Shown here: positions 13,784 through 39,945 of the stretch, in pieces | Numbering within the stretch: the stretch's first letter is position 1 | Layout: each line of letters starts with the position of its first letter | NCBI RefSeq assembly: GCF_009827655.1 | Contig: NZ_WTYV01000001.1 | Location: 434,001 to 498,000 of the forward strand | Source of the DNA: Alteraurantiacibacter buctensis | Lineage (GTDB): Bacteria; Pseudomonadota; Alphaproteobacteria; Sphingomonadales; Sphingomonadaceae | Direction of reading: 5' to 3' | DNA length: 64,000 bases | The notes under the pieces: generated by a model | What the model was told of the DNA's origin: nothing | Database searches by the model: none | The model's input: the letters and a program-made list of their open reading frames with translations, nothing else | Made by a program: the position numbers and the translations under genes

Positions 13784-14905
13784 TTACCAGTAGCGCTTGC
13801 TGGCTATCTCGGCCCCCTGAGCCAGGGCGGCCAGCTTGGCCCACACAACCGCCGGGTCCAGGTTATTGCTGCCGGCATGGACCGAGAAGCCGCAGTCCAC
13901 CCCCGCCATCACCCGTTCGCGGCCCAGCAGGTCGGCGTAGCGGCCGATGCGCTGCGCGATCAGCTCCGGGTGCTCGATATAGCTCGACTGGGGTTCGATC
14001 ATGCCTGGGCAGAGGATCTTCCCTTCCGGCAGGGAATTCTCCTCGAACCAGGCGAACTCGTGGTTGTGGCGCGGGTTGGCCCCCTCCAGTAGAACCGCCT
14101 GCGGCTTTGCACTCCACACGATATCGGCAATGTCGCCCAGCGGCACGTCGCAATGGTGCGGGCCGGGGTAGTTGCCCCAGCACAGGTGCATCCGGCACTG
14201 TTCCGCCGGAATGTTGCGGAGCGCATGGTTGAGCGCTGCCACATTCATGCCGATGCGCTTGCGGAAATCTTCGAGTGACAGGTGGGTGAACTGCACGTGG
14301 CGGCCCATCGCCAGGTCCGGGCAGTCAACCTGCAGGGTGATCCCGGCGGCGGCGATCGTCTCGTATTCGTGACGCAGTCCTTCGGCCAGGGCGAAGACGT
14401 ATTCCTCGTCAGTGGCGTAATACTGGTTGGGAAAGAACAGAGCGGTCACGCCGGGGCTGGCGGCTGACATGAAGGTCTCCTGACCTGCAGCCAGCCGGTT
14501 CAGCCGTTCCGCATCCTGCCGCGGAGCTTCCATGTCGATGACGGTAATCGGCGCGGTGCAGGCGGGGGCGGAGCGTTTGGCGCGGCCCTTGTTGCCGAAT
14601 ACCTGGGCCTTGGCACCGGGAAACTCTTCCAGGTCCTGGAATTCGTACTGCCCGGCCTCGCCGCCAAAGCCCGAGAGGCGGTGCTTGATATAGGTGGCAT
14701 AGCTGGGCTTGGACATCTCGCCATCGCCCACCACGGTGATGCCGGCCTTCACTTGCTCGGCGATAACTGCGGCAGTGGCGCGGTCGATCGCTTCGTCCAG
14801 CGCCGCCTGGTCGACCTCGTCGCCGCCCTCGCGGGCGAACATCAGGTCAAGCAGGTACTCCGGACGCGGCAGGCTGCCGGTGTGGGTGGTCTTGAAGCCG
14901 GTCAA
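13784..14905 (-). CDS. Cobalamin-independent methionine-synthase-like protein (first of a tandem pair)
   Basis: A 373-residue protein equivalent to the C-terminal catalytic barrel of MetE only; true MetE is about 750 residues with a duplicated N-terminal barrel. The family's zinc ligands appear to be kept: H240 and C242 in CRMHLCWGN and C338 in GVDCGF. The opening TTHTGSLPRP is typical of the group. Members of this single-barrel group include methyltransferases and epoxyalkane:coenzyme M transferase, so a methionine-synthase role is not proven. It starts with TTG in a TTGA overlap with the stop of its paralogue, so the two are translationally coupled. The catabolic context suggests transfer of a methyl or alkyl group to or from a thiol. 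Confidence 0.85.
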   Translation of the reverse strand: MTGFKTTHTGSLPRPEYLLDLMFAREGGDEVDQAALDEAIDRATAAVIAEQVKAGITVVGDGEMSKPSYATYIKHRLSGFGGEAGQYEFQDLEEFPGAKAQVFGNKGRAKRSAPACTAPITVIDMEAPRQDAERLNRLAAGQETFMSAASPGVTALFFPNQYYATDEEYVFALAEGLRHEYETIAAAGITLQVDCPDLAMGRHVQFTHLSLEDFRKRIGMNVAALNHALRNIPAEQCRMHLCWGNYPGPHHCDVPLGDIADIVWSAKPQAVLLEGANPRHNHEFAWFEENSLPEGKILCPGMIEPQSSYIEHPELIAQRIGRYADLLGRERVMAGVDCGFSVHAGSNNLDPAVVWAKLAALAQGAEIASKRYW

Positions 14906-15936
14906 GACAGCTCGGCCCGCACGATGGCCGCGCCGTCCACCATGGCCTTCATCTTGCCGAAGGCCACCTCGCGCGGGAGGTACTTCAGGCCGCAGTCCGG
15001 GGCTACGATGACCTTCTTCGCATCGATGTGCGGCAGGGCGCGGCGGATGCGGGCAGCGACCGTCTCCGGCTCTTCCACCGCGTGGGTGGAAAGGTCCAGC
15101 ACGCCCAGGATGATGGTCTTACCCGGCAGTTGCTCCAGCACCGCGGTATCGAGGTTGCTCTGCGCGGTCTCGATGCTGATCTGGCAAACGTGGCTGGCCG
15201 CCAGTTCGGGCAGGAAGGAATACCCTTCGGGCCGCTCGTGGATCAGGTGGGCATAGCCGAAGCAGATGTGCAGCGCGGTGGTGCCGGTGACGCCTTCCAA
15301 CGCGCGGTTGAGCGCCTTCAGGCCATAGGCCCGTGCCTTGTCTGGCCGCGCCTGCATGTAAGGTTCGTCAAGCTGGACCACATCGGCCCCGGCGGCGAAC
15401 AGGTCATTTACCTCGTCACGCACGGCATCGGCATAGGCGAGCGCCAGCGCTTCAGGGTCACCGTAATAGTCGTCCTGCGCCTGCTGGCTCATGGTGAAGG
15501 GCCCGGGCACGGTGATCTTGATCGCCTTGGCGGTGTGCTGCTTCATGAACTCCACATCGCGCACCTGCACGGCATGGCGGCGGCTGATCGGACCGATCAC
15601 CCGCGGCACCGGCACCGGTTCGCCCGACCGGTCGAGCGCGGTGCCGTGGTTGTCCATGTCCACCCCGTTCAGCGCCGTGGCAAACCGGTTGGAATAGCTT
15701 TCGCGCCGCATCTCGCCATCGGTGATGATGTCCAGGCCTGCCCGCTCCTGCTCGTGGATGGCATAGATGGTGGCATCGTCCCACGCCTCTTCCAGCAGTT
15801 CGCCTTCCGGAATCCGCCACAGTTCCTTCATCCGGGTGCGCGGCGGGAAGCGGCCGGCCAGAGCCTGGCGGTCGATCAGCCATTCGGGCTGGGCATAGGA
15901 ACCGACCAGTGAGGTCGGCAGCAGGGGCAGGGTCAT
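14902..15936 (-). CDS. Cobalamin-independent methionine-synthase-like protein (second of a tandem pair)
   Basis: A 344-residue single-barrel MetE-family protein. Likely zinc ligands are H223 and C225 in ALHICFGYAH and C315 in APDCGLKYLP. The start LLPTSLVGSYAQPEWL fits the family, and DGEMRRESYSNRF carries the expected glutamate. It differs clearly from its neighbour in sequence, so the two are old paralogues and may form a heteromer or act in sequence. The ATG at 15936 is preceded by a GGAGAGACC ribosome-binding site. There is no SAM riboswitch-like structure in the 86 bases upstream, and no homocysteine-related gene nearby. Confidence 0.85.
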   Translation of the reverse strand: MTLPLLPTSLVGSYAQPEWLIDRQALAGRFPPRTRMKELWRIPEGELLEEAWDDATIYAIHEQERAGLDIITDGEMRRESYSNRFATALNGVDMDNHGTALDRSGEPVPVPRVIGPISRRHAVQVRDVEFMKQHTAKAIKITVPGPFTMSQQAQDDYYGDPEALALAYADAVRDEVNDLFAAGADVVQLDEPYMQARPDKARAYGLKALNRALEGVTGTTALHICFGYAHLIHERPEGYSFLPELAASHVCQISIETAQSNLDTAVLEQLPGKTIILGVLDLSTHAVEEPETVAARIRRALPHIDAKKVIVAPDCGLKYLPREVAFGKMKAMVDGAAIVRAELS

Positions 15937-16022: not shown

Positions 16023-16595
16023 TTAGCGCACCAGCTCCCCGCCGGTACCGCCACCGGCAGCTTCCACCGCGTCTGACCGGAAATCGTTGTTGCTTGTGTG
16101 ATCACCCGCCAGCCAGCGCTTCAGCTCCGCATGGGCCTTGGCGCGGCGCGCGGCCTCGCCGGCGGGCGCGCGCGGATCGTCATGGGTGAATTCCACGGTC
16201 ATGCCATTGGGATCGACCACATAGAGCGAGCGGCAATAGCCGTGCTCCAGCACATAGGTGGCTTCCAGCCCCGCCGCCTCGATCCGCGCGGCAATCTCGT
16301 CCTGCGTCTGCTTGTCGACGTTCAGCGCCAGGTGGATGAAGGGGCTGGCGGGAATATCCGGGCCGAACAGCGCCTGGTCTTCCGGATCGGCGAACTGGAA
16401 GAAGGCCAGCGCGCCGCCATCGGCAATGCCGAAGAAGCAATGGCAATAAGTGCGCACCTTGCCAAACAGCTCGTCGCTCTCGCACCAGGTGGCCACCAGC
16501 GGCAGGCCGATGATGTCCTCATAAAAGGCGCGGGTGGCCTCAAGGTCCTTGGTGACATAGGCCGTGTGGTGCAGGCGGCTTGGCAGGTTGCCCAT
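16023..16595 (-). CDS. VOC-family (glyoxalase/extradiol dioxygenase fold) protein
   Basis: A 190-residue metal-dependent protein of the vicinal oxygen chelate fold. LHHTAYVTKDLEATRAFYED opens the first beta-alpha-beta-beta-beta module, and HLALNVDKQTQDE with LYVVDPNGMTVEFTHD forms the second. The histidines and the glutamate in VEFTHD are the probable metal ligands. Such proteins range from dioxygenases to isomerases and lyases, so the reaction is open. I chose the ATG at 16595, which follows GGGAGAGAAC; an upstream TTG at 16610 is less likely. It lies 83 bases below the CoA-transferase gene and has a palindromic site in that gap. Confidence 0.88.
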   Translation of the reverse strand: MGNLPSRLHHTAYVTKDLEATRAFYEDIIGLPLVATWCESDELFGKVRTYCHCFFGIADGGALAFFQFADPEDQALFGPDIPASPFIHLALNVDKQTQDEIAARIEAAGLEATYVLEHGYCRSLYVVDPNGMTVEFTHDDPRAPAGEAARRAKAHAELKRWLAGDHTSNNDFRSDAVEAAGGGTGGELVR

Positions 16596-16678: not shown

Positions 16679-17806
16679 TCACTTGCGCCCGAGAATTTCC
16701 GCATTGTCCGCGCCAAGCTCGGGCGGCGGTGTAACACTGTCCTGCACCTCGCCATCGAAGCGGATCGGGCTGCGGATGGTGCGGAAGGTCCCGCGCGGCC
16801 CTTCGCCTTCCACCACCAGCTGGTGATGCGCGGCCAGATCCCCCTCGACCACTTCCTTGCTGGTATAGACCGCGCTGTGCGGCACCTCCAGCCGGGTCAG
16901 CGTCTCTTCCCAATGGGCGCGCGGCTGCGTGGCAAAAATGGGGGCCAGGAAATCCACCACCTTCTCGTAATTGGCGATCCGCGCCGGGCGGCTTTCGAAC
17001 TCGGGCCGCTGGAGCATGTCGGGCTGGCCCACGGCGGTGGCGAGGTTCTCCCAGAACTTGGGAGGTGAGGACATATGCAGCGCAATCCAGCCGCCGTCCG
17101 CGCACTGGAACACGTAGCTTTGCGACACGTGCGGGCGGCTCCACGGGCCCATGACCTCCTCTACGCTGAGGTAATGGGTGAAATCGTCGAGGTTGAAGTG
17201 GCTCATCGCCTCGAACATGCTGGTCTCTACCTTGCGCCCGCGCCCGGTCTTCTCCCGCTCGTACAACGCGGCCAGCACGCCATAAGCGGTATAGAACCCG
17301 GTCACCGCATCGCCGATGGCGGGGCCGACCACACGCGGGTTGGCGGGGTTGACCAGCAGGCGCAGGAAGCCGGTGCAAGCCTGCGATACGGTGTCGAAGG
17401 CCGGGCGGTCCTTCCAGGGGCCATCGCTGCCAAAGCCGGTGATGGTGGCATAGACCAGCCGCGGGTTGATCGCCTGCAACCGCTCTGCATCCACGCCCAG
17501 CCGCTCCGCCACGCCGGGGCGGAAGTTTTCGATGAACACGTCAGCCCCGCGCACCAGCTCGTCCAGTGCGGCCAGGTCCTCGGGGTTGGCCTTGGTGTTG
17601 AGCGTAATACTCTTCTTGTTGCGGTTATAGGTCTGGAAATGCGGCGAATAGAGATCGCCCTTGAAGGCGCGGAACGGGTCGCCCGTCTCGGGCATCTCCA
17701 CCTTGATCACCTCGGCCCCAAGGTCCGCCAGCAGCATGCCGCAGGCCGGGCCGGTGATGAAGGTGCCCATGTCGAGCACGCGAATGCCTGCCAGTGGTCT
17801 TGCCAT
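16679..17806 (-). CDS. CaiB/BaiF-type (class III) CoA-transferase
   Basis: A 375-residue cytoplasmic enzyme that moves CoA from an acyl-CoA to a carboxylic acid. The N-terminal MARPLAGIRVLDMGTFITGP and DLGAEVIKVEMPETGDPFR are family signatures. The catalytic aspartate that forms the mixed anhydride is D166 in GPAIGDAVTGFY. It probably activates a carboxylate intermediate of the pathway encoded around it. The start follows GGGAGAGACAA. Only 51 bases separate it from the divergent citryl-CoA-lyase-like gene, so both probably share a control region and may act on the same intermediate. Confidence 0.93.
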   Translation of the reverse strand: MARPLAGIRVLDMGTFITGPACGMLLADLGAEVIKVEMPETGDPFRAFKGDLYSPHFQTYNRNKKSITLNTKANPEDLAALDELVRGADVFIENFRPGVAERLGVDAERLQAINPRLVYATITGFGSDGPWKDRPAFDTVSQACTGFLRLLVNPANPRVVGPAIGDAVTGFYTAYGVLAALYEREKTGRGRKVETSMFEAMSHFNLDDFTHYLSVEEVMGPWSRPHVSQSYVFQCADGGWIALHMSSPPKFWENLATAVGQPDMLQRPEFESRPARIANYEKVVDFLAPIFATQPRAHWEETLTRLEVPHSAVYTSKEVVEGDLAAHHQLVVEGEGPRGTFRTIRSPIRFDGEVQDSVTPPPELGADNAEILGRK

Positions 17807-17857: not shown

Positions 17858-18640
17858 ATGCGCATCGGCAAGCAGGACCAGCCTTTTTCAGCGATTTGCA
17901 CCAGCGATGCCGACAGCATCACCGTGCGCGGGCTGGACTTGTGCGGGGACATCATCGGCAAGTTCGATTTCTCCAGCTACTTCTGGTTCCTGGTCACCGG
18001 CCAGCAGCCGAACGAGCAGCAGAGCTTCTTTTTGAACGCCGTGCTGTGCGCGCTGGCAGAGCATGGCCTGGTCCCCAGCGTGGTCGCCGCGCGGATGACG
18101 CTGGCCGCCGCGCCGGAGGCGGTGCAGGGCGCGGTGGCGGCGGGACTGCTGGGCTGCGGCAGCGTGGTGCTGGGCAGCGCAGAGGTGGCCGGACGGTTCT
18201 ACGCCAAGTGCGTGGCCGACCAGCGGGCAACGGGCGATGACCTCCACACCGTGGCCGTGCGCCAGATCACCGAGCTGCGGCAGACCACCAAGGCCGTGCC
18301 CGGCTTCGGCCACCCGCAACACTCCGAAGGGGACCCGCGCGCCAACTTGCTGTTGAAGCTGGCCGACGAACGCGGCGTGAGCGGCGAACACGTGGCCATG
18401 ATGCGCGCCCTGCAGGCCGCGCTCCCGGAAACGGTGGGCCGGTCGCTCCCGGTCAACGTCAACGGCCCGATCCCCGCGATCATGCTCGACCTCGGTTGGC
18501 CGGTGGCGGCGCTGAAAGGCATCGGCCTGCTGTGCCGGACAGCGGGCCTGATCGGCCACCTGACCGAGGAGGCCGAGCGGCCCATCGGGTTCGTATTGAG
18601 CGGGGCTGCGGCGCAGGCGATTGGGTATGATGGGGAGTGA
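17858..18640 (+). CDS. Citryl-CoA lyase/citrate-synthase-like protein, half size
   Basis: A 260-residue protein with the citrate synthase fold but much shorter than citrate synthase (about 430). GFGHPQHSEGDPR (residues 149-161) matches the active-site segment of citrate synthase, with H152 and D159 conserved. The C-terminal GLLCRTAGLIGHLTEEAE resembles the C-terminal part of the family. Database relatives are usually named citryl-CoA lyase, but many are of unknown function. Opposite a CoA-transferase, it could cleave or form a C-C bond next to a CoA thioester. The start follows CCGGAGAGAGCA. A SUFU-domain gene begins three bases after its stop. Confidence 0.82.
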   Translation: MRIGKQDQPFSAICTSDADSITVRGLDLCGDIIGKFDFSSYFWFLVTGQQPNEQQSFFLNAVLCALAEHGLVPSVVAARMTLAAAPEAVQGAVAAGLLGCGSVVLGSAEVAGRFYAKCVADQRATGDDLHTVAVRQITELRQTTKAVPGFGHPQHSEGDPRANLLLKLADERGVSGEHVAMMRALQAALPETVGRSLPVNVNGPIPAIMLDLGWPVAALKGIGLLCRTAGLIGHLTEEAERPIGFVLSGAAAQAIGYDGE

Positions 18641-18643: not shown

Positions 18644-19225
18644 ATGAGCGGCCGTCCGCCCGGTGACAAGGAGCGCGCAATTGGGCGCTACATTCGCTCC
18701 AAATTCGGTTCCGACACATCGGTGCATCGATACGCTGACGATAGCGGGGACGTTGACCTTTTCCTTGTTTCAGGTCGCGATTGCCCTGTCGCTGGAGTGA
18801 CTTCCTTTGGCACCGTTGGATTGGCCCTTTACCCGTTCGATTTTCATGGCAGTTCGCTGTCCGTGGAACTGCTTGGCGCGTGCTCAACCATCACGGAGGG
18901 GTTTGATCGCGTAATCTCAAGTTGTGCCATCGAATGTATGAAGAATGGCACTTCTCTGCCAATCGAAAGCATCGTTCCCGACGTGATCTCACAGTACGGC
19001 CTCTCGGATACAATGCGCCACATCGTCCTCACCTCTCCGTTTTTGTGGGAGGGTTTCGAAACAGCCTTGAGTTTGGATGCGCTAACCGTTCATTGGCTAA
19101 TGGCGGTACCGATCTCAGATAGCGAAATGCGGTATTGCAAGACATCGGGGTTCGAAAATCTGGAAGCCGAGTTTCTCAAGCATCAGATAGATGTTTTTGA
19201 TCTGTCCCGTCCTTCAGTCATTTAG
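18644..19225 (+). CDS. Suppressor-of-fused (SUFU) domain protein, orphan immunity-like
   Basis: A 193-residue soluble protein. The C-terminal half shows the SUFU-domain pattern: LTSPFLWEGFE at about 128, VHWLMAVPISDSEMRYCKTS at about 149, then GFENLEAEFLKHQIDVFDLS. Bacterial SUFU proteins such as YqcF of Bacillus are immunity proteins against secreted or contact-dependent toxins. Its base composition is visibly lower in GC (many AT-rich codons such as ttt, aat and tca) than both neighbours, which points to acquisition by transfer. No toxin gene is beside it. It lies three bases behind the lyase-like gene, with GGGGAG as a possible ribosome-binding site inside that gene. Confidence 0.75.
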   Translation: MSGRPPGDKERAIGRYIRSKFGSDTSVHRYADDSGDVDLFLVSGRDCPVAGVTSFGTVGLALYPFDFHGSSLSVELLGACSTITEGFDRVISSCAIECMKNGTSLPIESIVPDVISQYGLSDTMRHIVLTSPFLWEGFETALSLDALTVHWLMAVPISDSEMRYCKTSGFENLEAEFLKHQIDVFDLSRPSVI

Positions 19226-19307: not shown

Positions 19308-20978
19308 ATGACCGCTGGTGAATTCGACTACATCGTTATCGGCGCAGGCTCGGCCGGGGCCTGTGTGGCGGCGCGGCTGGGTGAGGATTCCTCGAAAACC
19401 GTCTGCGTGCTTGAGGCGGGCGGGCATGACAGCCATCCGTTCATCCACTTGCCCAGCTTCGTCGCTGCCGCCATTGGCCGCAAGGAGACCAACTGGCGGT
19501 TCGAAACCGTGCCGCAGGCCGGCATGGCGGGCCGCAGGATCGGTGTGCCGCGCGGCAAGGTGCTGGGCGGCTCTGGCGCGATCAACGGCATGGTCTATTT
19601 CCGCGGCCACCCGACCGATTACGACGACTGGGTCGACGCGGGCTGCAAGGGCTGGTCCTATGCCGAAGTGCTGCCCTATTTCACCCGGACCGAGCATAAC
19701 GAGGACTATCCGGAGAGCGTGTTCCACGGCAAGTCGGGCCCCATCAACGCCAAGATGGTGGAGGGGCCGAACCAGCTTAATTACGATTTCATGGATGCGC
19801 TCGCCTCGCTCCAGTTCAAGGCCTGCCCCGATTTCAACGGGCCGGACCCGGAAGGCTATGGCCGCCGCCAGGGCCTGATCCGCGATGGGCGGCGCGAGAC
19901 GACAGCAAAGAACATGCTGCGCCCCGCGATGGCGCGCGGCAACATTCACGTGCAGACCGATGCCCAGGTGGCGCGGATCGTTGTCGAGAACGGCCGCGCG
20001 GTCGCGGTGGAGCTGGCAGATGGCCGCCTGGTCCGCGCCCGGCACGAGATTGTGCTGAGCGCCGGCACAGTGCAGACCCCGCAGATCCTGATGCTGAGCG
20101 GCATCGGCCCCGCGGCGCACCTGAAGGAGCATGGCATCGAGGTGGTGGCCGACCTGCCCGGCGTGGGGGGCAACTATCACGACCATGTCGCCAGCCCGAT
20201 GCACATGGAGACCGATGACATCACCAGTTACGGCATCAGCCCCTGGGCCATGCCGCGCAACGTGTTCTGGTTCTTCTACTACCTCGCCACCCGCAAGGGC
20301 CCGCTGGCGGGCAACGTGTTCGAGAGCGTGGCCTTCCTGCGCACCGATCCTTCGCTGGCCAAGCCGGACGTGCAGTTCGTGTTCCAGCCGGCCAAGCGGC
20401 TGACCAACCCCAAGGTGCCGTTCCCCATCGGCCACGGCTTCGGCATCAGCCCGGTGGCGCTCTATCCCAAGAGCAGGGGGACGGTGCGGCTTGCCAGCGC
20501 CGAGCCCACGGCAGCGCCGCTGATCGACCCCAACCTGCTCAAGGAGCCGGAGGACATCCTCCCCCTGATCCGCGCGCTGAAGATCGCCCGCGCCGCTTTC
20601 GCCGCACCCAGCTTCGCCCGCTACAAGGCCACAGAGGCCGCGCCCGGCCCGCAGTGCGACAGCGATGCCGAGTGGGACGCCTATATCCGCGAGACCGGCT
20701 ATACCGTGCATCACCCGGTGGGCACGGCGAAGATGGGCGATGCCAAGGACCCGCTGGCCGTGGTGGACCCCCAATTGCGCGTGCGCGGCATTGCCGGGCT
20801 GCGGGTGGCCGATGCCTCGGTGATGCCTAGCGTCATCGGTGGCAACACCAATGCCCCCTGCGTGATGATCGGCGAACGCTGCGCCGATTTCATCCTGGGC
20901 AAGGCACCCCTGCCCGCCGCAGAGCTGCCGCCCGAGAGCGTGGCCCGCTATAAGCCCAAAACGACCAAAGCCGCCTGA
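19308..20978 (+). CDS. GMC-family FAD oxidoreductase (choline-dehydrogenase-like)
   Basis: A 556-residue flavoenzyme that oxidises an alcohol to an aldehyde or ketone. The N-terminal FAD site is [18 protein letters not shown] (residues 7-24), and [18 protein letters not shown] is GMC signature 1. Signature 2 is seen as [17 protein letters not shown]. The C-terminal [10 protein letters not shown] holds the catalytic histidine, and GGNTNAP the second active-site residue. The length is typical. The ATG at 19308 follows GGGAGAGAGTCAAC. It is the first gene of a five-gene rightward operon, eleven bases ahead of a metallo-hydrolase, and probably performs an early oxidation. Confidence 0.94.
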
Positions 20979-25782: not shown

Positions 25783-25792
25783 CGAACACTCC

Positions 25793-30475: not shown

Positions 30476-30888
30476 CAGTCCATCCCGAAGAGCTTGGCGG
30501 TGTAATGGCTGTCCATGTACTCGCGCATCTTGTCGATCTTGCCGTTCGAGATCTCGAACACCCAGCAATAGTCGTTATCGTAGACCTTACCGTCGGGCAG
30601 ACCGCCTGTCGAATTGCTCTCCACGCAGACCCACCCGTCACGGCTGAACATGGTGTGCACGTGGACCTTGGGATCGCCGGGATTGAACATGCCGCGCACC
30701 GGGGCGAGGAACTTGTCGATGATGTCCATGCCAACGTGGCGGCCGGCGCCAGCGATGTCCTTTACCTTGGGCTCCCACACGCTTTCGTCGTGGTAGAAGG
30801 TGCGCAGCTTCTCCAAGTCGCCGCTCGACAGCACCTCGAAGAAATCCAGCACCAGTTGTTCGTCTGCGTTTGCCGCCTTGACGGTCAT
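30475..30888 (-). CDS. Nuclear-transport-factor-2/SnoaL-like protein
   Basis: A 137-residue cone-shaped alpha+beta-barrel protein of the NTF2-like superfamily. The N-terminal helices (EQLVLDFFEVLSSGDLEKLR) and the strands VHVHTMFSRDGWVCVESNST and DYCWVFEISNGKIDKMREYM fit the fold. Members act as isomerases, dehydratases, cyclases or small-subunit-like binders, such as limonene epoxide hydrolase, which it resembles in outline. The start at 30888 follows GGGAGAGGACGAA. It is preceded by a second SnoaL-like gene, 23 bases away. Confidence 0.85.
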   Translation of the reverse strand: MTVKAANADEQLVLDFFEVLSSGDLEKLRTFYHDESVWEPKVKDIAGAGRHVGMDIIDKFLAPVRGMFNPGDPKVHVHTMFSRDGWVCVESNSTGGLPDGKVYDNDYCWVFEISNGKIDKMREYMDSHYTAKLFGMD

Positions 30889-31842: not shown

Positions 31843-33099
31843 TTACAGAACGGAATAGGTGGCATCGATCAGCCGGCGGGCGCGCGGGCCGTTGTCGCCC
31901 ACGGCGTGCATCTGGTTGCAACAGTACGAGAACCCCAGCTTCGCATCGGGATCGCCGAAGCCGATCGATCCGCCCAGGCCGTGATGCCCGAAGCTGCGCA
32001 TGTTGGGGCCCATCCATACCGCTTGCGGAGTGTTGAGCAGCACACCCAGCGCCTGGTGATAGGGGCGGTCCTGCAGCAGCTCGACCTGGTTGTGCTGTTC
32101 GGTAATCATGGCCTCCAGCGCGCCTTGCGACAGCAGCCGCACGCCATCGACAGCGCCCACGGTGGCGCCATAGATGCGCGCCACGCCGCGGGCGTTGCCG
32201 TGGCCGGATCCGCTGGCGATCTCGCACGTGCGCCAAACCGGGCTGTTCATCGTGGTGTGCCACGGCTCGTTGGGGTTCTGCAGGAAAGCAAACTTGCGCA
32301 GGACCGCGCCATCCTGCCACCCTTCGGGCGTGGTGGGCTTTGCAGGCATGGCGGTATCTTTCGCCGCGAACAGCCGTGCACCGGTGTTGGGCAGCACTTC
32401 GGCCACGTGCTCCTGCTCGGCCGCGCTCATCCCGCCGATCGCATATTCGGCGTGGAGCCGCCCGGTGACGTGTTCACGCAGGAAGGGACCAACGGTCATC
32501 CCCGTTACCCGGCGCATGATCTCGCCCAGAAGGAAGCCCTGGTTGTGCACATGGTAGGCAGCGCGGGTGCCCGGCTGCCACAGCGGCTCCTGCACCTCGA
32601 GCGCCCTGATATAGCCCGGGTAATCGAAGAACCCGCCGGGATACACGGTGTCCGTGGTAAGAACAGGGATTGCGGCGCGGTGGTCCAGGCACCAGCGCAC
32701 CAGGATATCCTCTTTTCCGTTCTGGGCGAATTCAGGCCAGTAGTAAGCCACCGGCCTGTCGATATCGATCAGTCCCCGCTCCACGCACATGTTGAAGGCA
32801 ATGCCGGTCACGCCCTTGGCCACGCTCATCATGCACACCGTGCTGTGCGCGTCCCATTCGCGGGTGCGATCGGCATTGGCCCAGCCGCCCCACAGGTCGA
32901 CCACGGTCTCGCCGTCGACCACTACTGAGCACGCGGCTCCCAATTCTTCCTCGTGGGTGAAGTTGTGGACGAAGGCATCGAACACGGGCGCGAACTTCTC
33001 GTCGCACAGGCCGTGCAGCGTGCAACTTCCGCCACGCGCTTCGACGGTGTGATGATAATCGATCTGCCCCAAGGCAATGGTCTCCCAACCCGGCCGCAT
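31843..33099 (-). CDS. Serine hydrolase, beta-lactamase-like (EstB type)
   Basis: A protein of up to 418 residues with the class C beta-lactamase/esterase fold. SVAK (S92, K95) is the nucleophile motif, and the tyrosine is in YHVHNQGFLLGEIMRR. There is no signal peptide. The stretch GLCDEKFAPVFDAFVHNF near residue 31 is typical of EstB-like esterases. The start is uncertain: the ATG at 33099 has only a 12-base palindrome (33,111-33,122) in front, while an in-frame TTG nine codons later follows GGGAGA, the ribosome-binding motif used by most genes of this cluster. It is the first gene of the long leftward unit. Confidence 0.87.
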   Translation of the reverse strand: MRPGWETIALGQIDYHHTVEARGGSCTLHGLCDEKFAPVFDAFVHNFTHEEELGAACSVVVDGETVVDLWGGWANADRTREWDAHSTVCMMSVAKGVTGIAFNMCVERGLIDIDRPVAYYWPEFAQNGKEDILVRWCLDHRAAIPVLTTDTVYPGGFFDYPGYIRALEVQEPLWQPGTRAAYHVHNQGFLLGEIMRRVTGMTVGPFLREHVTGRLHAEYAIGGMSAAEQEHVAEVLPNTGARLFAAKDTAMPAKPTTPEGWQDGAVLRKFAFLQNPNEPWHTTMNSPVWRTCEIASGSGHGNARGVARIYGATVGAVDGVRLLSQGALEAMITEQHNQVELLQDRPYHQALGVLLNTPQAVWMGPNMRSFGHHGLGGSIGFGDPDAKLGFSYCCNQMHAVGDNGPRARRLIDATYSVL

Positions 33100-33156: not shown

Positions 33157-33966
33157 TCAATCCAGAAAGGCGATGGTCCGCAGTTCCACGCTCTGGCGCG
33201 GCGCGGCATTCGGCGGAGCGGTGGGATCGTTGAAGGCGGAGTGGGCGGTGAACTGCACCGCAGCGGGATCGCTGTCGAACAGCTTGAAGACCAGCGCTTC
33301 GCTGGGATGCATGTGCGGCACCCAGCACCAGCGATGATCGGGCCGATAAGCCAGGTTGAAGCCCCACAGCGAGAAATCGAGCCCGCCCAGCCCGCCCACG
33401 ATCTCGCTGTCGAACAGGTCTTCGCGGCGCACGGTGCGCGCATCGCACAGCGCCAGCGGGGCGCTTTCAACCGAGGTGATCGGCCGCCAGACGTTGATCA
33501 GCATGTGTTGCCGGGCCAGCAGCCGTTCCGCCTCTTCCCCACCCACGATTTTCCGGGTGAAATCGGCCACCGTCTTCGCGCCATAGTCCACATGCGCGCC
33601 GAACGCGGGCTGGTTGTGGCCATGGGTGCCGCTGGCACTGGTCCGCAGGATCGGGCCGAAACTGATTACCCGGGAGGCACCGGTCAGCCGCTGCACCAGA
33701 TCCTCGGTCTGGCGGCAATAGGCGTCGAGCTGGGCCTTGTCGGAATAGTCGGCAATGCCGCTCGGCTCGTCCACCACCACAAAGCCGTTGCTCTCGAGCT
33801 CCAGCTCGCCCAGTTCGGGCCGCAGGTCATGGAACACCACCTGGTGCTCCTCGCCCGGCCAGTAGCTGCGCTCGCGATCGCCGGCGTAGAAGGTCGCCTT
33901 CTCGCCGCGCACCACATATTTCATGGTCGCGGTCACATCCCGTAACAGCGTATCGGCTTCGTCCAC
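33157..33966 (-). CDS. CmcJ/NvfI-family oxidoreductase-like protein
   Basis: About 269 residues. The segments LINVWRPI, HGHNQPAFGAHVDYG and PHMHPSEALVFKLFDSDP are the hallmark of the CmcJ/NvfI/AsaB family, related to 7alpha-cephem methoxylase partner CmcJ and to fungal GA4-desaturase-like proteins; several members are 2-oxoglutarate/Fe(II)-type oxygenases. The conserved histidines and aspartate (HVDYG, HMHP) could bind iron. The start is uncertain. I chose the GTG at 33966, which follows GGGAGAGCGCC; an ATG at 34008 or 33924 is possible. It is divergent from the MFS gene. Confidence 0.75.
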   Translation of the reverse strand: MDEADTLLRDVTATMKYVVRGEKATFYAGDRERSYWPGEEHQVVFHDLRPELGELELESNGFVVVDEPSGIADYSDKAQLDAYCRQTEDLVQRLTGASRVISFGPILRTSASGTHGHNQPAFGAHVDYGAKTVADFTRKIVGGEEAERLLARQHMLINVWRPITSVESAPLALCDARTVRREDLFDSEIVGGLGGLDFSLWGFNLAYRPDHRWCWVPHMHPSEALVFKLFDSDPAAVQFTAHSAFNDPTAPPNAAPRQSVELRTIAFLD

Positions 33967-34053
33967 GGCGCTCTCCCAAACCCTTTGACGATTATTTCCA
34001 TCCACCATAGCAAGGTGTCCAAGCCGCCGTCGAGCGGCATGGGAGAGACCGGG

Positions 34054-35388
34054 ATGAGCGAAGGCTTGCCACAAGCGGGCACAGACCCGCGCGACGTGCT
34101 GCGCGGGCGGCCGATGAACCTGCAACAATATGGCGTGGTGGCCATCTGCGTGCTCATCAACATGATCGACGGGTATGACATCCTGGCCCTGGCCCAGGCG
34201 GGCGCGGCGCTGAAGCGCGAATGGGGCATGAGCGATGCCGTGCTGGGCACGCTGTTATCCATGAACCTGGTCGGCATGGCCCTGGGGGCGCTGGGTGTGT
34301 CGCCCGTGGCCGACCAGTGGGGCCGCCGTCCGGCCATGTTGATCTGCCTGACGCTGATGAGCGTGGGCATGGCCGTTTCCGCCGTGTCCAGCGGCTTCTG
34401 GACGATGGCCATTGGCCGCCTGATCACCGGCGTGGGCATCGGCGGGATGACCAGCACGGCAGGCACCATGGCGCTGGAGTATGCCAACGTGCGCTGGCGC
34501 GAATTCGCTACGGCCTCTGTCGCCAGCGCCTATCCGGTCGGCACAATCATCGGTGCGGGTGTGGCGGTGGCGGTGCTCGATTCGTATGGTTGGCGCGGCA
34601 TCTTCTGGGTGGGCGCGGCGCTCTCAGCCACCCTGCTGCCGATCGCCCTGCTGTGGCTGCCCGAAAGCCTCGACTTCCTGCTCACCCGCCAGCCGAAGGG
34701 GGCGCTGGAAACCACCAACAAGGTGCTGCGGCGCATGCAGGTGCCCGAAATCGCCGCCCTGCCGGAGCGCCCCGCAGATTCTTCCGAGGGATCCACCGCG
34801 CTTGGCGAAATCATGCAGCCGGTCCACCGCAACGAGCTGCTGTTCAAGCTGTTCATCGCCCACGCGCTCAACATGTTTGCCTGGTACTTCATCATCAACT
34901 GGGGACCGCCGCTGGTGGCCGAGGCTACCGCGTCGGACGAGACGGGCGCGCGCTATTCGGCCTGGGTGTCCTACGGCGGAATCGTTGGCGGCCTGGCGGG
35001 TGGTTACCTTTGCGGGCGCGCGGGCGTTAAGCGCATGATGTGGATTACCATGATCAGCCTGGCCGTGCTGATCGCGCTGTTTGGCCAGTTCACCGGCAAC
35101 CAGCAGGCGCTGTGGGTGATCGCTCCGCTGATGGGCGCAGCGCTGTTCGGCTCGGCGGTCGCCAACTGGCTGACGATTGCCTATGCCTTCCCCCCGCACC
35201 TGCGCGCCACGGGCTTGGGTTTTGCCACCACGGCCGGCCGGGTGGGATCGATCTTCGGGCCGATCGTGGGCGGAGCGCTGCTCGACACCGACCTTGGCGT
35301 GGGCATCGTATGCCTGCTGATGGGCCTGCCCGCGATCCTGGCGGCGCTGAACTACACGCGCGCCCGGCGGGTGGAGCCGGGACGCTAG
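34054..35388 (+). CDS. MFS transporter, aromatic acid:H+ symporter-like
   Basis: About 444 residues with twelve predicted transmembrane helices. After a short hydrophilic start, NLQQYGVVAICVLINMIDGY forms helix 1, with the aspartate typical of the AAHS family (D in MIDGYD). The inter-helix loop VADQWGRRPAML is the MFS signature 2-3 loop. PcaK-type proteins of this family import aromatic acids with protons. A likely role is uptake of the cluster's substrate or an intermediate. I chose the ATG at 34054 with GGGAGAGACC in front; other in-frame starts lie upstream, to 33985. Confidence 0.9.
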   Translation: MSEGLPQAGTDPRDVLRGRPMNLQQYGVVAICVLINMIDGYDILALAQAGAALKREWGMSDAVLGTLLSMNLVGMALGALGVSPVADQWGRRPAMLICLTLMSVGMAVSAVSSGFWTMAIGRLITGVGIGGMTSTAGTMALEYANVRWREFATASVASAYPVGTIIGAGVAVAVLDSYGWRGIFWVGAALSATLLPIALLWLPESLDFLLTRQPKGALETTNKVLRRMQVPEIAALPERPADSSEGSTALGEIMQPVHRNELLFKLFIAHALNMFAWYFIINWGPPLVAEATASDETGARYSAWVSYGGIVGGLAGGYLCGRAGVKRMMWITMISLAVLIALFGQFTGNQQALWVIAPLMGAALFGSAVANWLTIAYAFPPHLRATGLGFATTAGRVGSIFGPIVGGALLDTDLGVGIVCLLMGLPAILAALNYTRARRVEPGR

Positions 35389-35389: not shown

Positions 35390-35770
35390 CTACGAGTGGA
35401 ACGCCCCCACGGCGGGCACGCTATCGGTATATTCGCGCAGTTCGGTGATCTTGCCGGACTCGTCGAAAGTGAACACGAAGCAGAACTGGTTGACGTAGGA
35501 CCTGCCGTTTCTCAACGGGCTGTCACAGGTGGTCAGCACCACGGCGCGGTTGCCGCAAGCGAAGGCGCCCTCGTGCGCAAAGCAGATGCCGTCGACCAGC
35601 AAGCTCCGCGCACCCTCCAGCAGCGCGGCCAGGCCTGCCGGGTCCAGCCACCCCTGTCCCGGCAACCACACCCGGGCGCCAGGCGCATAGAACGCCCGCA
35701 TCGCTTCCAGATCGAGGCGGCGGATCGCCTCGAGATAGGCCAGCGCCGTGGCGCGGGGATCGAATGTCAT
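35390..35770 (-). CDS. Nuclear-transport-factor-2/SnoaL-like protein
   Basis: A 126-residue NTF2-fold protein, the third in the cluster. The helix ATALAYLEAIRRLDLEAMRA leads into FYAPGARVWLPGQGWLD, and the C-terminal strands end FDESGKITELREYTDSVP, strongly like the end of the SnoaL protein at 30,475. The role is probably isomerase, dehydratase or a binding protein. The start overlaps by one base (TGATG) the stop of the MFS gene before it, so the two are translated together. It is tail to tail with the first MFS gene, with one base between the stops. Confidence 0.82.
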   Translation of the reverse strand: MTFDPRATALAYLEAIRRLDLEAMRAFYAPGARVWLPGQGWLDPAGLAALLEGARSLLVDGICFAHEGAFACGNRAVVLTTCDSPLRNGRSYVNQFCFVFTFDESGKITELREYTDSVPAVGAFHS

Positions 35771-37050
35771 CAGCCAGGTTCTCCGCTTCTGCGCGCCAGC
35801 ACGCGCTGGTTGGTCTCGGCAACGCCCAGCGCAACCAGCCCGGCCAGCGCGGCCAGGCCAAGCTGGACATAGAGCGTCACATCGAGCGAATAGCTGTCGG
35901 CCAGCCGCCCGGTCATCGGCGGCAGGGCGAAACCGCCGAAGATCTCGCCCACGGCGACCACTGCGCCCATGGCCGTGGCAGCCCGCGCGCGGCCCAGCGT
36001 CTCGGCCGGGATCACACCCATGAACAGCGGGAAACTGCCCAGGCCCATCCAGCTGACGAACAGCAGGGCCGCCAGCACGGCTGGCCCGCCATCCAGCCAC
36101 AAGAGCCCGGCAGGTGCCAGCGTCATCAATAGGCAGAACAGCACCAGCGCAGGCTTGCGGCCCACCCGCTCGGACAGCAGCCCCGCGCTTACCGCACCTA
36201 CTGCCGGGGCAAAGCCCACGGCGGACATGATCCGGCTCCACACGGCGGGCTCGATACCCAGCGGACCGTCCATGTACAGGGGCATGAAAATCGATCCGAC
36301 CACCACGCTGCCCACTGCACAAATGCTGACCACCGCGGACAGCCAGATGTTGCGCGTAGTCAGCAGCGATCCGGCCTCGCGCAGTTCGCGGCCCACCCGA
36401 GCGCCGAAGCCGCTCGCCTGCACTTCCACCGGCGGCGGCGGCAGGTCCGGCTCCTTTACATAGCGCCAGATCAGCACGGCCAGGATCAGCCCCGGCACGC
36501 CCGCCAGCATGAAGGCCAGCCGCCAGTCGTAGGCCGTGGCGATGGCCACCAGTACCAGCGGGGCAAGTGCCGTGCCGATGATCGAGCCGAACACGTTCTG
36601 CACCACCCCGGCGTTCAGGCCCTTGCGGCTCTCGGCCGAGGCGGCGACCATGATCGCCAGGCAAATCGGCAGGAACGGCCCTTCCGCTGCGCCCATCACC
36701 ACGCGGGCCGCCAGCAGGGAGCCGAAGCTCCACGCCAGGCCGGACATGACCGAACAGAAGCTGAAGATCACCAGCGCCGCCAGCAGGAATGGCTTGCGCC
36801 GCCCGATCAGGTCCGACCACCGTCCGACGAAATAGGCACCCAGCGCCCAGGTCAGCGACAGTCCGGAGCCTAGCCAGGCTACCTGTTCGTTGCTCAGGCC
36901 CATATCCGCCTGCACTGCCGGCCCCAGAAATGTCATCGCCATGCGGTCGAAGTAGGCGAAGCCATAGGCTAGCCCCAGCAAGAGCAGTACGCTCAACTCG
37001 TAACCGCGCGGCAACCAGCCTTCGTGTGCCTTTTGAGTGGCTTGCATCAT
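35770..37050 (-). CDS. MFS transporter
   Basis: About 426 residues and twelve predicted transmembrane helices. The first, ELSVLLLLGLAYGFAYFDRM, has the pattern of the anion:cation symporter-like or sugar-phosphate-type MFS branch. The loop VGRWSDLIGRRKPFL between helices 2 and 3 is typical. It is the second MFS carrier in the cluster and could export a product or import another substrate. GGGAGAG lies directly before two ATG codons (37050 and 37047), so the second may be used. A 309-base gap separates it from the divergent TonB receptor gene. Confidence 0.9.
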   Translation of the reverse strand: MMQATQKAHEGWLPRGYELSVLLLLGLAYGFAYFDRMAMTFLGPAVQADMGLSNEQVAWLGSGLSLTWALGAYFVGRWSDLIGRRKPFLLAALVIFSFCSVMSGLAWSFGSLLAARVVMGAAEGPFLPICLAIMVAASAESRKGLNAGVVQNVFGSIIGTALAPLVLVAIATAYDWRLAFMLAGVPGLILAVLIWRYVKEPDLPPPPVEVQASGFGARVGRELREAGSLLTTRNIWLSAVVSICAVGSVVVGSIFMPLYMDGPLGIEPAVWSRIMSAVGFAPAVGAVSAGLLSERVGRKPALVLFCLLMTLAPAGLLWLDGGPAVLAALLFVSWMGLGSFPLFMGVIPAETLGRARAATAMGAVVAVGEIFGGFALPPMTGRLADSYSLDVTLYVQLGLAALAGLVALGVAETNQRVLARRSGEPG

Positions 37051-37359: not shown

Positions 37360-39945
37360 ATGAAGTTCAAGACGCTCAGCGTCACATCGTCACTTGCTAT
37401 CATGGCCAGCATGGCCGTTCCGGCCTATGCGCAGGATGCCAGTGACTCTGACGACAACCGCACCAATACCATCGTGGTGACTGCGGAATTCCGCGAAGCC
37501 AACCTGCAGGATACGCCGATCGCGATCACGGCGGTCAATGCCGAGATGCTGGAAGCGCGCGGCCAGACCGACATTTCGCAAGTTGCCGCTCAGGCTCCCA
37601 ACGTAACGCTGAAGGCCCAGCCTCAAGGTGGCGGCAACGGCCTGATCGCCTTCATCCGCGGCGTAGGCCAAGTTGACTTCAACTACGCACTCGATCCCGG
37701 CGTGGGTGTTTATGTGGACGACGTCTACATTCCCACCCTGTCCAGCTCTCTGCTCGAACTGATCGACCTCGACCGTATCGAGATCCTTCGCGGCCCGCAG
37801 GGCACCCTCGCGGGCAAGAACTCCATCGGCGGCTCGATCAAGCTGTTCAGCGCCCGCCCGAACGGCGATGGCGACGGCTCGCTGCGCCTGACCTACGGTT
37901 CGTTCAACCGGATCGAAATGCGCGGCATGGCGGATTTCGAAGTGACGGATAACCTGTTTGCCCGCATCTCGGGCGTGGGCAGCAGCCGCGATGGCTATGT
38001 CCGCCTGGTGGACTACGGTCTGACCCACCCCACCTCGAACGTGCCGGCCAACAACGCGCGCGGCCGCGGCAACCCCGACAACCAGACGCTTGGCGGTGGC
38101 ACGATGGTTGCCGGCCGTCTGGCCCTGCGCTGGGTTCCGAACGATCGCCTGGAAGTGAACGTCTCGGGTGACTACTCGTCCGATAAGGGTGAGGCAGGCC
38201 CGCAGGTCCTGATCGCCATGGGCGCTCCCTCGCCCGCCGCCACCTTCAACCCGTTCTCCAGCAACCCCGCCTCCAGCGCAGGAGCCCTGCCGCCTGCCGG
38301 CCCGCCGCCAGCCCTGCCTTGGCTGGTCGGCAAGAACGGCCAGGCGGTTCCCGGTACCTGCGCCTTTGTGGCTGCGGGTCCATACAGCTGTGATACGCTG
38401 ACCGGCAATTATGGTGATCGGCGCTTCATCAACTACGCCAATTTCCTTGATGCCCGCCAGCCCACCCAGCAGGCACCGTACAAACCCTATGCCGCACTGC
38501 CGATCAGCGAACTGGTGGGCTGGGGCTTCCACAGCAACATCACCTACGATCTGTCCGACGACCTGCAGGCCGTCTGGATCGCGTCGTACCGCCAGTACCA
38601 GTCGAACTGGGGCGAAGATCAGGACGCCTCGCCGATTCCGATCGCCCAGCTGGACAACCAGCTCAACCACCACGCGTGGAGCCAGGAACTGCGGTTGAAC
38701 TTTGAGCTGGCCGATGGTCTTGTGGAAGGCACCGTGGGAGGGTTCTACCTGGACCAGGCGGGCGAATACACCGCGCGCGTGGACCTGAACTATGCCGGTA
38801 TCGACTTCATTCACGGCCCGGACACCACGCCGAGCACGACGAAGGCGGTGTTCGGTACGGCCACCCTTCGCCCGACCGATGCTCTCAGCATCACGGGCGG
38901 CATCCGGTACTCTAAGGACAAGAAGATTTACACGTACTTCCGGTCCAACCCGGATGGCACGGTTCCTTTCCGCGAAGCCACCAACCTGTTCATCCCTGGC
39001 GTTCCCGCTTGCGAATTCTTTCTTGGCGCCCCCACGGCGGGCCCGACAGGTATTGGCAACACGCCGAACTGCCTGTTGACCGGCCTGTTCGGCATCTCGG
39101 ACGATTTCCGCGGCGACCGGGTCGACTGGCGTCTTTCGGCCGACTACCGGTTCTCGGACGAGCTGCTGACCTACGTCTCGGTCTCGACCGGGTTCAAGGG
39201 TGGCGGCGTGAACCCGCGTCCTTTCTTCGGTCCCTCGGCCGGCGACTGCAACGCACCGGGTTACGTCGCTCCGGCACCGTGTAACCAGCTGCGCGCGTTC
39301 GATCCGGAAACGATCATCACGTACGAGGCTGGCTTCAAGGCCGACATCCTTGATCGCACCCTGCGTCTGAACGGTGCGGTTTTCTACAACGATTACTCAA
39401 ACATCATCCTTCAGCTGTCCGCCTGTCCGTCGTCGCCGTGCCTCCAGCCGCGCAACGTCGGTTCGGCCAAGGTGAAGGGTTTCGAGCTCGAAATGGAAGC
39501 CTATCCGGCTGATGGCCTGTCGTTCGATGGTGGCCTGAGCTACATCGATTTCGACTACGATCCGGCATCAGTGCGGGCCGCTGGCCTGACGGGTAACGAA
39601 GTGACCCCGTACACGCCTGAATGGACGTGGAATATCGGCGCACAGTACGATTACGATATCGGCTCGGGCACGATCAGCACTCGTCTGGACGGTTCTTATC
39701 GGTCGGAAATCTTCACCGAAACCTTCAACACCGAGTGGAGCCGGATCGGCGGTTATTTCATTGCCAACGGTCGTGTGGCCTACACCACCGGGGAAGACGA
39801 CTGGACGGTAGCGCTGGAAGTGCAGAACATCTTTGACCGCTACTACTTCCAGACTATCAGCGACGTGACCGCTTCGCTGGGTCTTGTCACCGGCCAGCCG
39901 GGCATGCCGCGGACCTGGTCGGCATCGGTCACCCGCCGCTTCTGA
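37360..39945 (+). CDS. TonB-dependent outer-membrane receptor
   Basis: An 861-residue outer-membrane transporter energised by TonB. The signal peptide is residues 1-24 (cleavage after PAYA). A TonB box IVVTA follows at 38-42. The plug domain (about 50-160) carries IRGVGQVDF and RIEILRGPQGTLAGKNSIGG, the conserved end of the plug. The remaining part forms the 22-stranded barrel and ends in the aromatic WSASVTRRF. No N-terminal signalling domain is present, so it is not a FecA-type receptor. In sphingomonads, receptors of this group often import organic compounds, here presumably the cluster's substrate. GGGGAGGAAACCTG precedes the ATG. Confidence 0.95.
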   Translation: MKFKTLSVTSSLAIMASMAVPAYAQDASDSDDNRTNTIVVTAEFREANLQDTPIAITAVNAEMLEARGQTDISQVAAQAPNVTLKAQPQGGGNGLIAFIRGVGQVDFNYALDPGVGVYVDDVYIPTLSSSLLELIDLDRIEILRGPQGTLAGKNSIGGSIKLFSARPNGDGDGSLRLTYGSFNRIEMRGMADFEVTDNLFARISGVGSSRDGYVRLVDYGLTHPTSNVPANNARGRGNPDNQTLGGGTMVAGRLALRWVPNDRLEVNVSGDYSSDKGEAGPQVLIAMGAPSPAATFNPFSSNPASSAGALPPAGPPPALPWLVGKNGQAVPGTCAFVAAGPYSCDTLTGNYGDRRFINYANFLDARQPTQQAPYKPYAALPISELVGWGFHSNITYDLSDDLQAVWIASYRQYQSNWGEDQDASPIPIAQLDNQLNHHAWSQELRLNFELADGLVEGTVGGFYLDQAGEYTARVDLNYAGIDFIHGPDTTPSTTKAVFGTATLRPTDALSITGGIRYSKDKKIYTYFRSNPDGTVPFREATNLFIPGVPACEFFLGAPTAGPTGIGNTPNCLLTGLFGISDDFRGDRVDWRLSADYRFSDELLTYVSVSTGFKGGGVNPRPFFGPSAGDCNAPGYVAPAPCNQLRAFDPETIITYEAGFKADILDRTLRLNGAVFYNDYSNIILQLSACPSSPCLQPRNVGSAKVKGFELEMEAYPADGLSFDGGLSYIDFDYDPASVRAAGLTGNEVTPYTPEWTWNIGAQYDYDIGSGTISTRLDGSYRSEIFTETFNTEWSRIGGYFIANGRVAYTTGEDDWTVALEVQNIFDRYYFQTISDVTASLGLVTGQPGMPRTWSASVTRRF

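Follow-up and report, generated by a model that had tools for sequence, protein, structure and literature searches.

A gene cluster between tRNA-Leu and HU/IHF

A 26-kb gene cluster lies between a tRNA-Leu(TAA) gene and a gene for an HU/IHF-type DNA-binding protein in Alteraurantiacibacter buctensis, at positions 13784-39945 of the 64,000-nucleotide stretch of contig NZ_WTYV01000001.1 that we analysed (the window). Pfam and NCBIfam scans of the window proteins recovered within the cluster every family listed in a preliminary description of this DNA, and in addition a CrtO-like FAD gene, a SUFU gene and small genes at 24759-25962 (Table 1). These small genes, one of them DksA/TraR-like, are unrelated to the rest and divide the cluster into two blocks, A and B. 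For the comparisons below, we distinguish M1 (13784-18640), M2 (19308-24762) and M3 (from SDR 1 through the TonB receptor, ending at 39945). We define "the body" as M2 minus its cytochrome P450, plus M3, that is, GMC through TonB. We find that the cluster is a real degradation gene set of two separable modules, M1 and the body, that are common to relatives. The earlier view of a catabolic-type cluster with uptake genes of its own (TonB receptor and two MFS carriers) is supported, and the cluster is conserved across related genomes.

Table 1. Features of the cluster and its edges, in window positions
Feature	Position	Strand	Remarks
tRNA-Leu(TAA)	13664..13748	-	Left edge of inserted interval; ARAGORN, Rfam
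M1 MetE-like protein 1 (MetE1, g01)	13784..14905	-	PF01717 weak; zinc ligands H, C, E, C present
M1 MetE-like protein 2 (MetE2, g02)	14902..15936	-	MesD-like core methionine-synthase type; zinc and homocysteine-binding residues retained
M1 single-domain VOC protein (g03)	16023..16595	-	Proposed ring-cleavage dioxygenase
M1 family III CoA-transferase	16679..17806	-	Pfam/NCBIfam
M1 citrate-synthase-fold protein, annotated citryl-CoA lyase	17858..18640	+	Catalytic Asp replaced by Asn202
SUFU-domain gene, probable recent passenger	18644..19225	+	Pfam; G+C 0.526
Body (M2) GMC oxidoreductase (g07)	19308..20978	+	
Body (M2) metallo-beta-lactamase-fold hydrolase 1 (MBL1)	20990..21883	+	
CYP199-like cytochrome P450 (g09)	21888..23069	+	Mostly accompanies M1 at site
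Body (M2) metallo-beta-lactamase-fold hydrolase 2 (MBL2)	23066..23875	+	
Body (M2) 3-hydroxyisobutyrate-dehydrogenase-like protein	23872..24762	+	
Small genes g12a, g12b, DksA/TraR-like, hypothetical	24759..25962	.	Outside pathway; probably native to site
Body (M3) SDR 1	25977..26765	-	
Body (M3) phytoene-desaturase/CrtO-like FAD oxidoreductase (g14)	26980..28548	-	
Body (M3) beta-lactamase-fold serine hydrolase 1	28558..29703	-	
Body (M3) SDR 2	29720..30475	-	
Body (M3) SnoaL-like 1	30475..30888	-	
Body (M3) SnoaL-like 2	30912..31388	-	
Body (M3) PcaC-like CMD protein (g19)	31385..31831	-	
Body (M3) beta-lactamase-fold serine hydrolase 2	31843..33099	-	
Body (M3) CmcJ/NvfI-family oxidoreductase (CmcJ1, g21)	33157..34008	-	
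Body (M3) MFS carrier 1	34039..35388	+	Nearest aromatic acid/H+ symporters, below cut-off
Body (M3) SnoaL-like 3	35390..35770	-	Identified on longer reading frame
Body (M3) MFS carrier 2	35770..37050	-	
Body (M3) TonB-dependent receptor	37360..39945	+	
HU/IHF-type DNA-binding gene	40060..40425	-	Right edge of inserted interval; Pfam

Conservation and separability of M1 and the body

We compared the cluster with 61 genomes of relatives, 37 of which belong to the same genus (the strain's own genome included) and provide all co-occurrence statistics. Close orthologs of the FAD gene g14 (82-90% identity) are encoded in 22 of the 61, every one of them same-genus, while further genomes contain more distant matches (30-41% identity). 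The body is found in 22 of the 37 same-genus genomes. The gene order from g13 to g20 is retained in 18 fetched body loci (L119-L136), with SnoaL2 undetected in L132, and the order of block A recurs in Erythrobacteraceae loci. In cultured Alteraurantiacibacter aestuarii, locus L012 contains M1 and the initial genes of the body. Because both orders recur in relatives, the cluster is not a product of chance. CmcJ1 (66-78% identity) is present in 21 of the 22 body genomes; in G001 the contig stops at serine hydrolase 2. MFS1, SnoaL3 and MFS2 vary among body loci, the body's right end lies in inverted orientation and away from serine hydrolase 2 in G016 (L126, L151; G016:C23), and in G008 serine hydrolase 2 and CmcJ1 are separated by an additional FAD_binding_3 gene (L122:9451-10656). 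Genes in the fetched loci were called with a simple script that takes the longest frames weighted by codon-position G+C, and that misses genes.

M1 adjoins the body in 13 of the 22 body genomes (G000, G004, G005, G007, G008, G009, G016, G020, G021, G026, G029, G032 and G034; the call for G021 is from gene spacing only, and that for G032 spans two contigs). It lies away from the body in six others (G001, G003, G010, G014, G018 and G030): on a different contig in three of them, and on the same contig at a distance of about 0.18 Mb in G010, 1.5 Mb in G018 and 1.2 Mb in G030. M1 was not found in three body genomes (G006, G019 and G033). Some of the relatives' genomes are incomplete (69-90%), so that absences in G006, G024, G028 and G034 are soft. 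M1 also occurs without the body in two same-genus genomes, G012 and G023, as well as in other Alphaproteobacteria and in Burkholderiales. This synteny comparison speaks against the initial suggestion of one pathway for one substrate class: since M1 is found apart from the body, or without it, in relatives, a single indivisible pathway is not supported.

Separable as they are, the two modules keep company. M1 is present in 19 of the 22 body genomes and in two of the 15 body-less ones (2x2 table: 19, 2, 3, 13; Fisher p = 1.9e-5, uncorrected for phylogeny, as the Fisher tests used here ignore shared ancestry). In a comparison of DXS that covered 41 genomes, 25 of them among the 37 of the genus, body-bearing and body-less genomes intermingle at 80-82% identity. 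That M1 and the body co-occur although they are separable makes a metabolic link plausible. The P450 gene follows a similar pattern: orthologs with at least 82% identity are encoded in 14 genomes, namely all 13 with M1 at the body site and one (G006) of the nine other body genomes. G006 is the exception to a rule that would confine the P450 to genomes in which M1 lies at the site.

The cluster fills exactly the interval between tRNA-Leu(TAA) and HU/IHF. In all eight body-less genomes examined, out of the 15 in the genus set, this interval measures no more than 0.7 kb, the HU/IHF protein is 81-88% identical to the window copy, and GntR and POT genes are found further out. The 19-kb stretches around these empty sites contain no match to g01-g11 or g13-g25. 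Homologs of g12a or g12b are present in three of the eight (L158, L159 and L164), which indicates that the small genes are probably native and that blocks A and B entered on either side of them. The G+C content of the cluster is 0.65-0.67, compared with 0.68 in the flanks, with the exception of the SUFU-domain gene (0.526). This low-G+C gene is wedged between the genes for the citrate-synthase-fold protein and the GMC oxidoreductase; none of 80 M1-related loci carries one, and it is probably a foreign, recent passenger. A tRNA gene forms one edge of the insertion, as it would for a tRNA-targeted integrative element. We rejected such an element, as the tRNA region was not seen repeated at the right edge (no att direct repeat) and none of the cluster proteins matched an integrase family in the Pfam and NCBIfam scans. 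The 26 kb may instead be a chromosomal island that was assembled stepwise between tRNA-Leu and HU/IHF, flanking small native genes.

It could be argued that this site is merely an insertion hotspot at tRNA-Leu shared by two unrelated catabolic modules, whose adjacency is historical and whose metabolism is separate. The six body genomes with M1 elsewhere and the three in which it was not found would fit such a scenario, as would the probably native genes between the blocks and the case of G006, in which the site has the P450 but M1 was not found. However, M1 and the body co-occur even when they are apart, and the P450, whose gene lies among those of the body, goes with the presence of M1 at this site (13/13 vs 1/9). 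We consider this scenario somewhat unlikely.

A citrate-synthase fold without the catalytic aspartate and an exchangeable dioxygenase slot

The M1 protein that is annotated as a citryl-CoA lyase has the lyase fold of the citrate synthase superfamily and scores 318.3 bits against NCBIfam model PRK06224.1-5 (cut-off 193). At the position of the catalytic Asp (NVDG motif), it has Asn202. All 94 distinct sequences compared lack the Asp and have Asn, Ser, Thr or Gln in its place (81 of 81 with N or S; 20 further loci with N, S or T, eight of which duplicate the first set; and one Q, read by eye). We take the replaced residue to be the one that is catalytic in ACLY (D1026) and in the M. concilii enzyme (D541), mutants of which appear in PDB titles. 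The family also has an extra His155, which is invariant. Compared with the citryl-CoA lyase of Hydrogenobacter thermophilus (6hxp) and the lyase module of ACLY, the fold is the same, but the window family lacks the Asp and has the invariant His155, a CoA-transferase partner and, in many cases, dioxygenase neighbours. With the catalytic Asp missing, the protein probably works differently from what its name implies. A role as a true citryl-CoA-type lyase in the degradation of itaconate/citramalate or alkylcitrate was set aside because the Asp is absent.

To describe the companions of this protein, we used the best 80 of 106 related loci found in the genome collection, which come from Erythrobacteraceae, other Sphingomonadales, Rhodobacterales, Hyphomicrobiales, Thalassospira, Pseudokordiimonas and Burkholderiales. 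In each of the 80 loci, the citrate-synthase-fold gene is accompanied by a CoA-transferase gene. At an identity threshold of at least 37%, 42 of these loci encode a VOC protein, 16 a LigB-like protein, 13 an intradiol-like protein and ten no dioxygenase. Four of the last group are on contigs shorter than 8 kb (L026, L044, L056 and L075), L056 having a LigA-like gene, and L047 encodes a more distant VOC protein recognised by Pfam. The expectation that no M1 relative carries two dioxygenase types fails for L055 only, where a LigB-like and an intradiol-like gene occur together; at other thresholds, no locus with two types was seen. The LigB-like and intradiol-like proteins are remote from named models (140 vs 290 bits and 149 vs 359, respectively). 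That three unrelated dioxygenase types occupy one slot argues that M1 acts after ring fission. In the VOC protein g03, two His and one Glu, which we take to be ligand residues, are conserved in more than 97% of 51 sequences. Given these residues and the mutual exclusivity with LigB-like and intradiol-like proteins in the slot, we propose g03 as a putative ring-cleavage dioxygenase.

Several other genes recur at the 80 loci. A PcaR/PcaU-like IclR regulator (237 bits, under the cut-off of 285) is encoded in 46, MetE2 in 36, MetE1 in 34, an amidohydrolase (413 vs 391) in 24, a WrbA quinone reductase (338 vs 141) in 18 and an alpha/beta hydrolase in 16. Rhodobacterales-type loci contain TRAP-transporter-like and FMN-reductase-like genes, named by resemblance. 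The three Burkholderiales loci (L050, L054 and L064) consist of the CoA-transferase/citrate-synthase-fold pair with genes resembling a tripartite-tricarboxylate-type receptor and a LysR-type regulator; the receptor in this minimal version suggests direct import of the acid.

The family extends to a relative in G025 that is 42% identical (283 bits vs the cut-off of 193) and has Gln at the Asp position. There (L173:8264-17458, C9), the gene lies between those for a cupin-domain protein and 4-hydroxy-2-oxovalerate aldolase (579 vs 286), and no CoA-transferase was recognised nearby. The operon continues with an acylating acetaldehyde dehydrogenase (466 vs 282) and a FAA_hydrolase-family gene at the usual place of the hydratase, and also encodes a MhpC/BphD/HsaD-type hydrolase (under cut-offs). 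It further encodes an SDR and subunits of the phenylpropionate-dioxygenase type, together with an extradiol enzyme of the BphC type. Nearby genes specify an acyl-CoA ligase, an acyl-CoA dehydrogenase and enoyl-CoA hydratases. Because this meta-cleavage operon is complete without the citrate-synthase-fold protein, that protein must do something further. A role as 2-hydroxypentadienoate hydratase was rejected, since the FAA_hydrolase-family protein exists within the operon (G025:C9:295870-296364). In the bolder version of our reading given below, the position of the Gln member at the close of a complete operon of the phenylpropionate type suggests that Asp-less members also use other ring-fission products. 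A search for G025-type proteins in 396 genomes of the order gave matches in 42, all 39-45% identical to the G025 protein. Of 20 such loci that were fetched, 19 contain the M1 CoA-transferase; the other, L194 (L194:9022-11988), is a different context in which a distant lyase-like relative with Thr at the Asp position lies near another family III CoA-transferase and SDR-like and Baeyer-Villiger-monooxygenase-like genes (the latter recognised by eye).

The zinc ligands of the MetE-like proteins (H-x-C, E and C) show little or no variation among 42 MetE1 and 41 MetE2 sequences, and MetE2 retains the Ser, Glu and Asp that PMC7857596 names for homocysteine binding. The closest known system is MesD (3RPD), which works with MesX and has in common with MetE2 a lone Meth_synt_2 domain and the zinc and homocysteine residues. 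MetE2 differs in that it is 37% identical to the MesD of its own genome (207 bits; 205 bits against 3RPD) and has no MesX neighbour. These values fall short of the limit for MesD membership, which PMC7857596 sets at 390 bits or about 55% identity with another MesD as query. The single MesX (DUF1852) match of the genome, at C15:26557, adjoins the true MesD, and none lies beside g02. With MesD and MesX intact elsewhere in the genome, housekeeping methionine synthesis was rejected as the role of g02. An O2-dependent supply of methyl groups from MesX to MesD is predicted in PMC7857596; by analogy, we propose that the methyl donor for the MetE proteins could be a methoxylated product of the M1 oxygenases.

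A possible route for a methoxylated phenolic

The best PDB matches of the P450 g09 are CYP199 proteins (E values of 6.6e-75 to 3.7e-68, the next group being at 2e-40), including 2fr7, presumably CYP199A2. In our own reading of the alignment, Arg92 is retained beside gaps, whereas Ser95 is replaced by Glu, Ser244 by Thr, Arg243 by Gln, Phe182 by Trp and Phe185 by Met. CYP199A4 oxidises para-substituted benzoates such as 4-methoxybenzoate, and its carboxylate-binding residues are given as Arg92, Ser95 and Ser244 (PMC11854964). The para-substituted-benzoate monooxygenases CYP199A2 and CYP199A4 are thus the closest solved P450s, but the pocket of g09 is altered in part, and its substrate may therefore differ from theirs.

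The body, for its part, is tied to another region of the genome, which holds a cluster for protocatechuate 4,5-cleavage. There, a second CmcJ paralog (C10:776618, L117) is encoded with LigA (209.9 vs 108.6), LigB (484 vs 317), oxalomesaconate tautomerase (460.7 vs 440) and amidohydrolases, and to its right (L117/L169, G000:C10:767001-805000) with a LigM/DesA-resembling GCV_T protein, a PQQ dehydrogenase, TauD and a third MetE-like protein. All 22 body genomes have CmcJ paralogs that are 33-39% identical to CmcJ1, in 20 of them at most 4 kb from a LigB gene, and the 15 other same-genus genomes have no CmcJ match. LigB with at least 83% identity is encoded in 21 of the 22 and in two of the 15 (G027 and G036; p = 3.8e-7, uncorrected for phylogeny); in G032 it is represented by two fragments (89 and 93%), and the one body genome outside the 21 is G034, with only 60%. 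An RPE65-family (lignostilbene-dioxygenase-like) gene lies beside LigAB-like genes in L155. In L154, genes for enoyl-CoA hydratase and for an acyl-CoA ligase of the NDP-forming type lie near a LigB-like gene. Taken together, the LigAB, RPE65-family and CoA ligase genes make this look like an aromatic-degrading lineage. The known counterpart is found in Sphingobium SYK-6, with its lig pathway of protocatechuate 4,5-cleavage and its catabolism of vanillate and syringate (PMC6888825). The A. buctensis genome likewise has LigA, LigB, oxalomesaconate tautomerase and, by resemblance, a LigM/DesA-type GCV_T protein in one region. To our knowledge, the SYK-6 lig pathway lacks CmcJ, the metallo-beta-lactamase-fold (MBL) hydrolases, CMD and the CoA-transferase/citrate-synthase-fold pair. 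A third CmcJ paralog was seen in L118 (G000:C15:699435), flanked by genes that resemble those for a methyltransferase and a TonB receptor.

Among the body proteins, CmcJ1 clearly belongs to its family (CmcJ_NvfI_EfuI, 250.8 bits vs a cut-off of 80), and an HVD motif and a distal His, presumably the iron ligands, are conserved in 38 CmcJ sequences. Three others fall under the cut-offs of the names they suggest: PcaC (TIGR02425) for g19 (142.9 vs 155.7), choline dehydrogenase BetA (TIGR01810) for g07 (480.2 vs 732.1) and beta-carotene ketolase CrtO (NF045689) for g14 (214.3 vs 1000). The name lactonase was rejected for the MBL proteins, whose best scores are 70.6 bits (cut-off 425) and 68.5 bits (cut-off 360). 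The solved relatives of CmcJ1 are NvfI and another 2-oxoglutarate dioxygenase, and NvfI-type relatives are, we assume, of fungal biosynthetic origin. Together with SnoaL, P450 and a possible MFS exporter, they could point to biosynthesis, with the cluster serving for tailoring or self-resistance. We regard this as highly improbable, given that the scanned cluster proteins include no polyketide synthase, nonribosomal peptide synthetase or terpene synthase, that the receptor is of the TonB uptake type, and that CoA-transferase and dioxygenase genes are neighbours in relatives.

A single pathway for a terpenoid, steroid, macrolide or lactone, in which the P450, the CrtO-like enzyme, MBL lactonases, SnoaL proteins and SDRs break down a polycyclic compound in successive steps, also seems quite improbable to us. 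The CrtO-like flavoprotein, the SnoaL proteins, the weak similarity of the MBL proteins to lactonases and the distant lyase-like relative in L194, with its Baeyer-Villiger-monooxygenase-like, SDR-like and family III CoA-transferase neighbours, are what such a pathway would have in its favour. Yet the MBL scores are far under the lactonase cut-offs, no model of steroid or terpene ring degradation is above its cut-off for any cluster protein, the nearest solved P450s use benzoates, and the body is tied to the protocatechuate cluster. Of the substrates guessed at initially, a methylated aromatic agrees with the CYP199-like P450, the interchangeable dioxygenases and the protocatechuate link, while a lactone, terpenoid or macrolide drew no support from the scans made.

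We tentatively favour, at not quite an even chance, a reading in which the body is an upper pathway for a methoxylated phenolic and M1 with the P450 is a separable lower pathway; the substrate, each reaction and the order of reactions are what we infer for both. The body would import and trim a plant-type phenolic by means of its GMC, MBL and CrtO-like FAD proteins, its dehydrogenases, two esterase-like serine hydrolases, SnoaL, CMD, TonB and MFS proteins, with CmcJ perhaps acting as an Fe/2-oxoglutarate-type enzyme, and the resulting aromatic acids would go to the protocatechuate 4,5-cleavage cluster. M1 with the CYP199-like P450 would be a second lower pathway, for a methoxylated ring. In it, the P450 would demethylate or hydroxylate an aryl acid, the VOC protein would open the ring, and the CoA-transferase would turn the ring-fission acid into its CoA ester. 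A C-C bond of this ester would be broken by the Asp-less citrate-synthase-fold protein with the help of another proton donor, for which the invariant His155 is one candidate, while the methyl group would be passed on to a thiol, e.g. homocysteine, by the MetE-like zinc proteins. A precedent for ring opening ahead of methyl removal is the fungal methoxyhydroquinone 1,2-dioxygenase route (MhdA/OmeA), in which a methoxylated hydroquinone is opened to a methyl ester before demethylation (PMC8336404). It differs from the M1 proposal in being fungal and in having an esterase take off the methyl group, where M1 would use MetE-type transfer. No described pathway with this gene combination was found among the papers listed in searches of the open-licence literature, which is weak evidence of absence. 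In a bolder version, M1 would be an undescribed finish of aromatic catabolism, in which the acid from any of three unrelated dioxygenase types is loaded onto CoA and split by the Asp-less fold with another proton donor, and MesD-like proteins pass the methoxyl methyl directly to a thiol; we think this unlikely.

A number of observations weigh against the favoured reading. The LigB-like and intradiol-like proteins that accompany M1 in other lineages score below every NCBIfam dioxygenase cut-off, no NCBIfam model matched the LigA-like protein at 1e-6, and the nearest PDB relatives of the VOC protein are FosA-type and "glyoxalase" chains, with no characterised dioxygenases among them. No dioxygenase was recognised in the Burkholderiales M1 loci, so the acid handled by M1 need not derive from a ring. 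The CYP199 carboxylate-pocket residues are retained only in part in g09. PDB entry 8g1e is titled as a structure of ACLY D1026A with products, so lyase chemistry may survive without the Asp. Finally, there are the three body genomes in which M1 was not found, the two same-genus genomes with M1 and no body, and a co-occurrence that is uncorrected for phylogeny.

The interest of this locus rests on the Asp-less enzyme and the interchangeable dioxygenase slot. The name "citryl-CoA lyase", which is spread by annotation pipelines, is called into question, as the supposed catalytic residue is absent from all 94 distinct proteins compared, which are given this name by the family model or close relatives of it. 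The small operon, consisting of a CoA-transferase, an Asp-less citrate-synthase fold, one dioxygenase type and MetE-like proteins, is carried by named strains and is open to testing. It also offers a link to the breakdown of methoxylated aromatics, in which O-demethylation is described as often a key bottleneck (PMC6021390).

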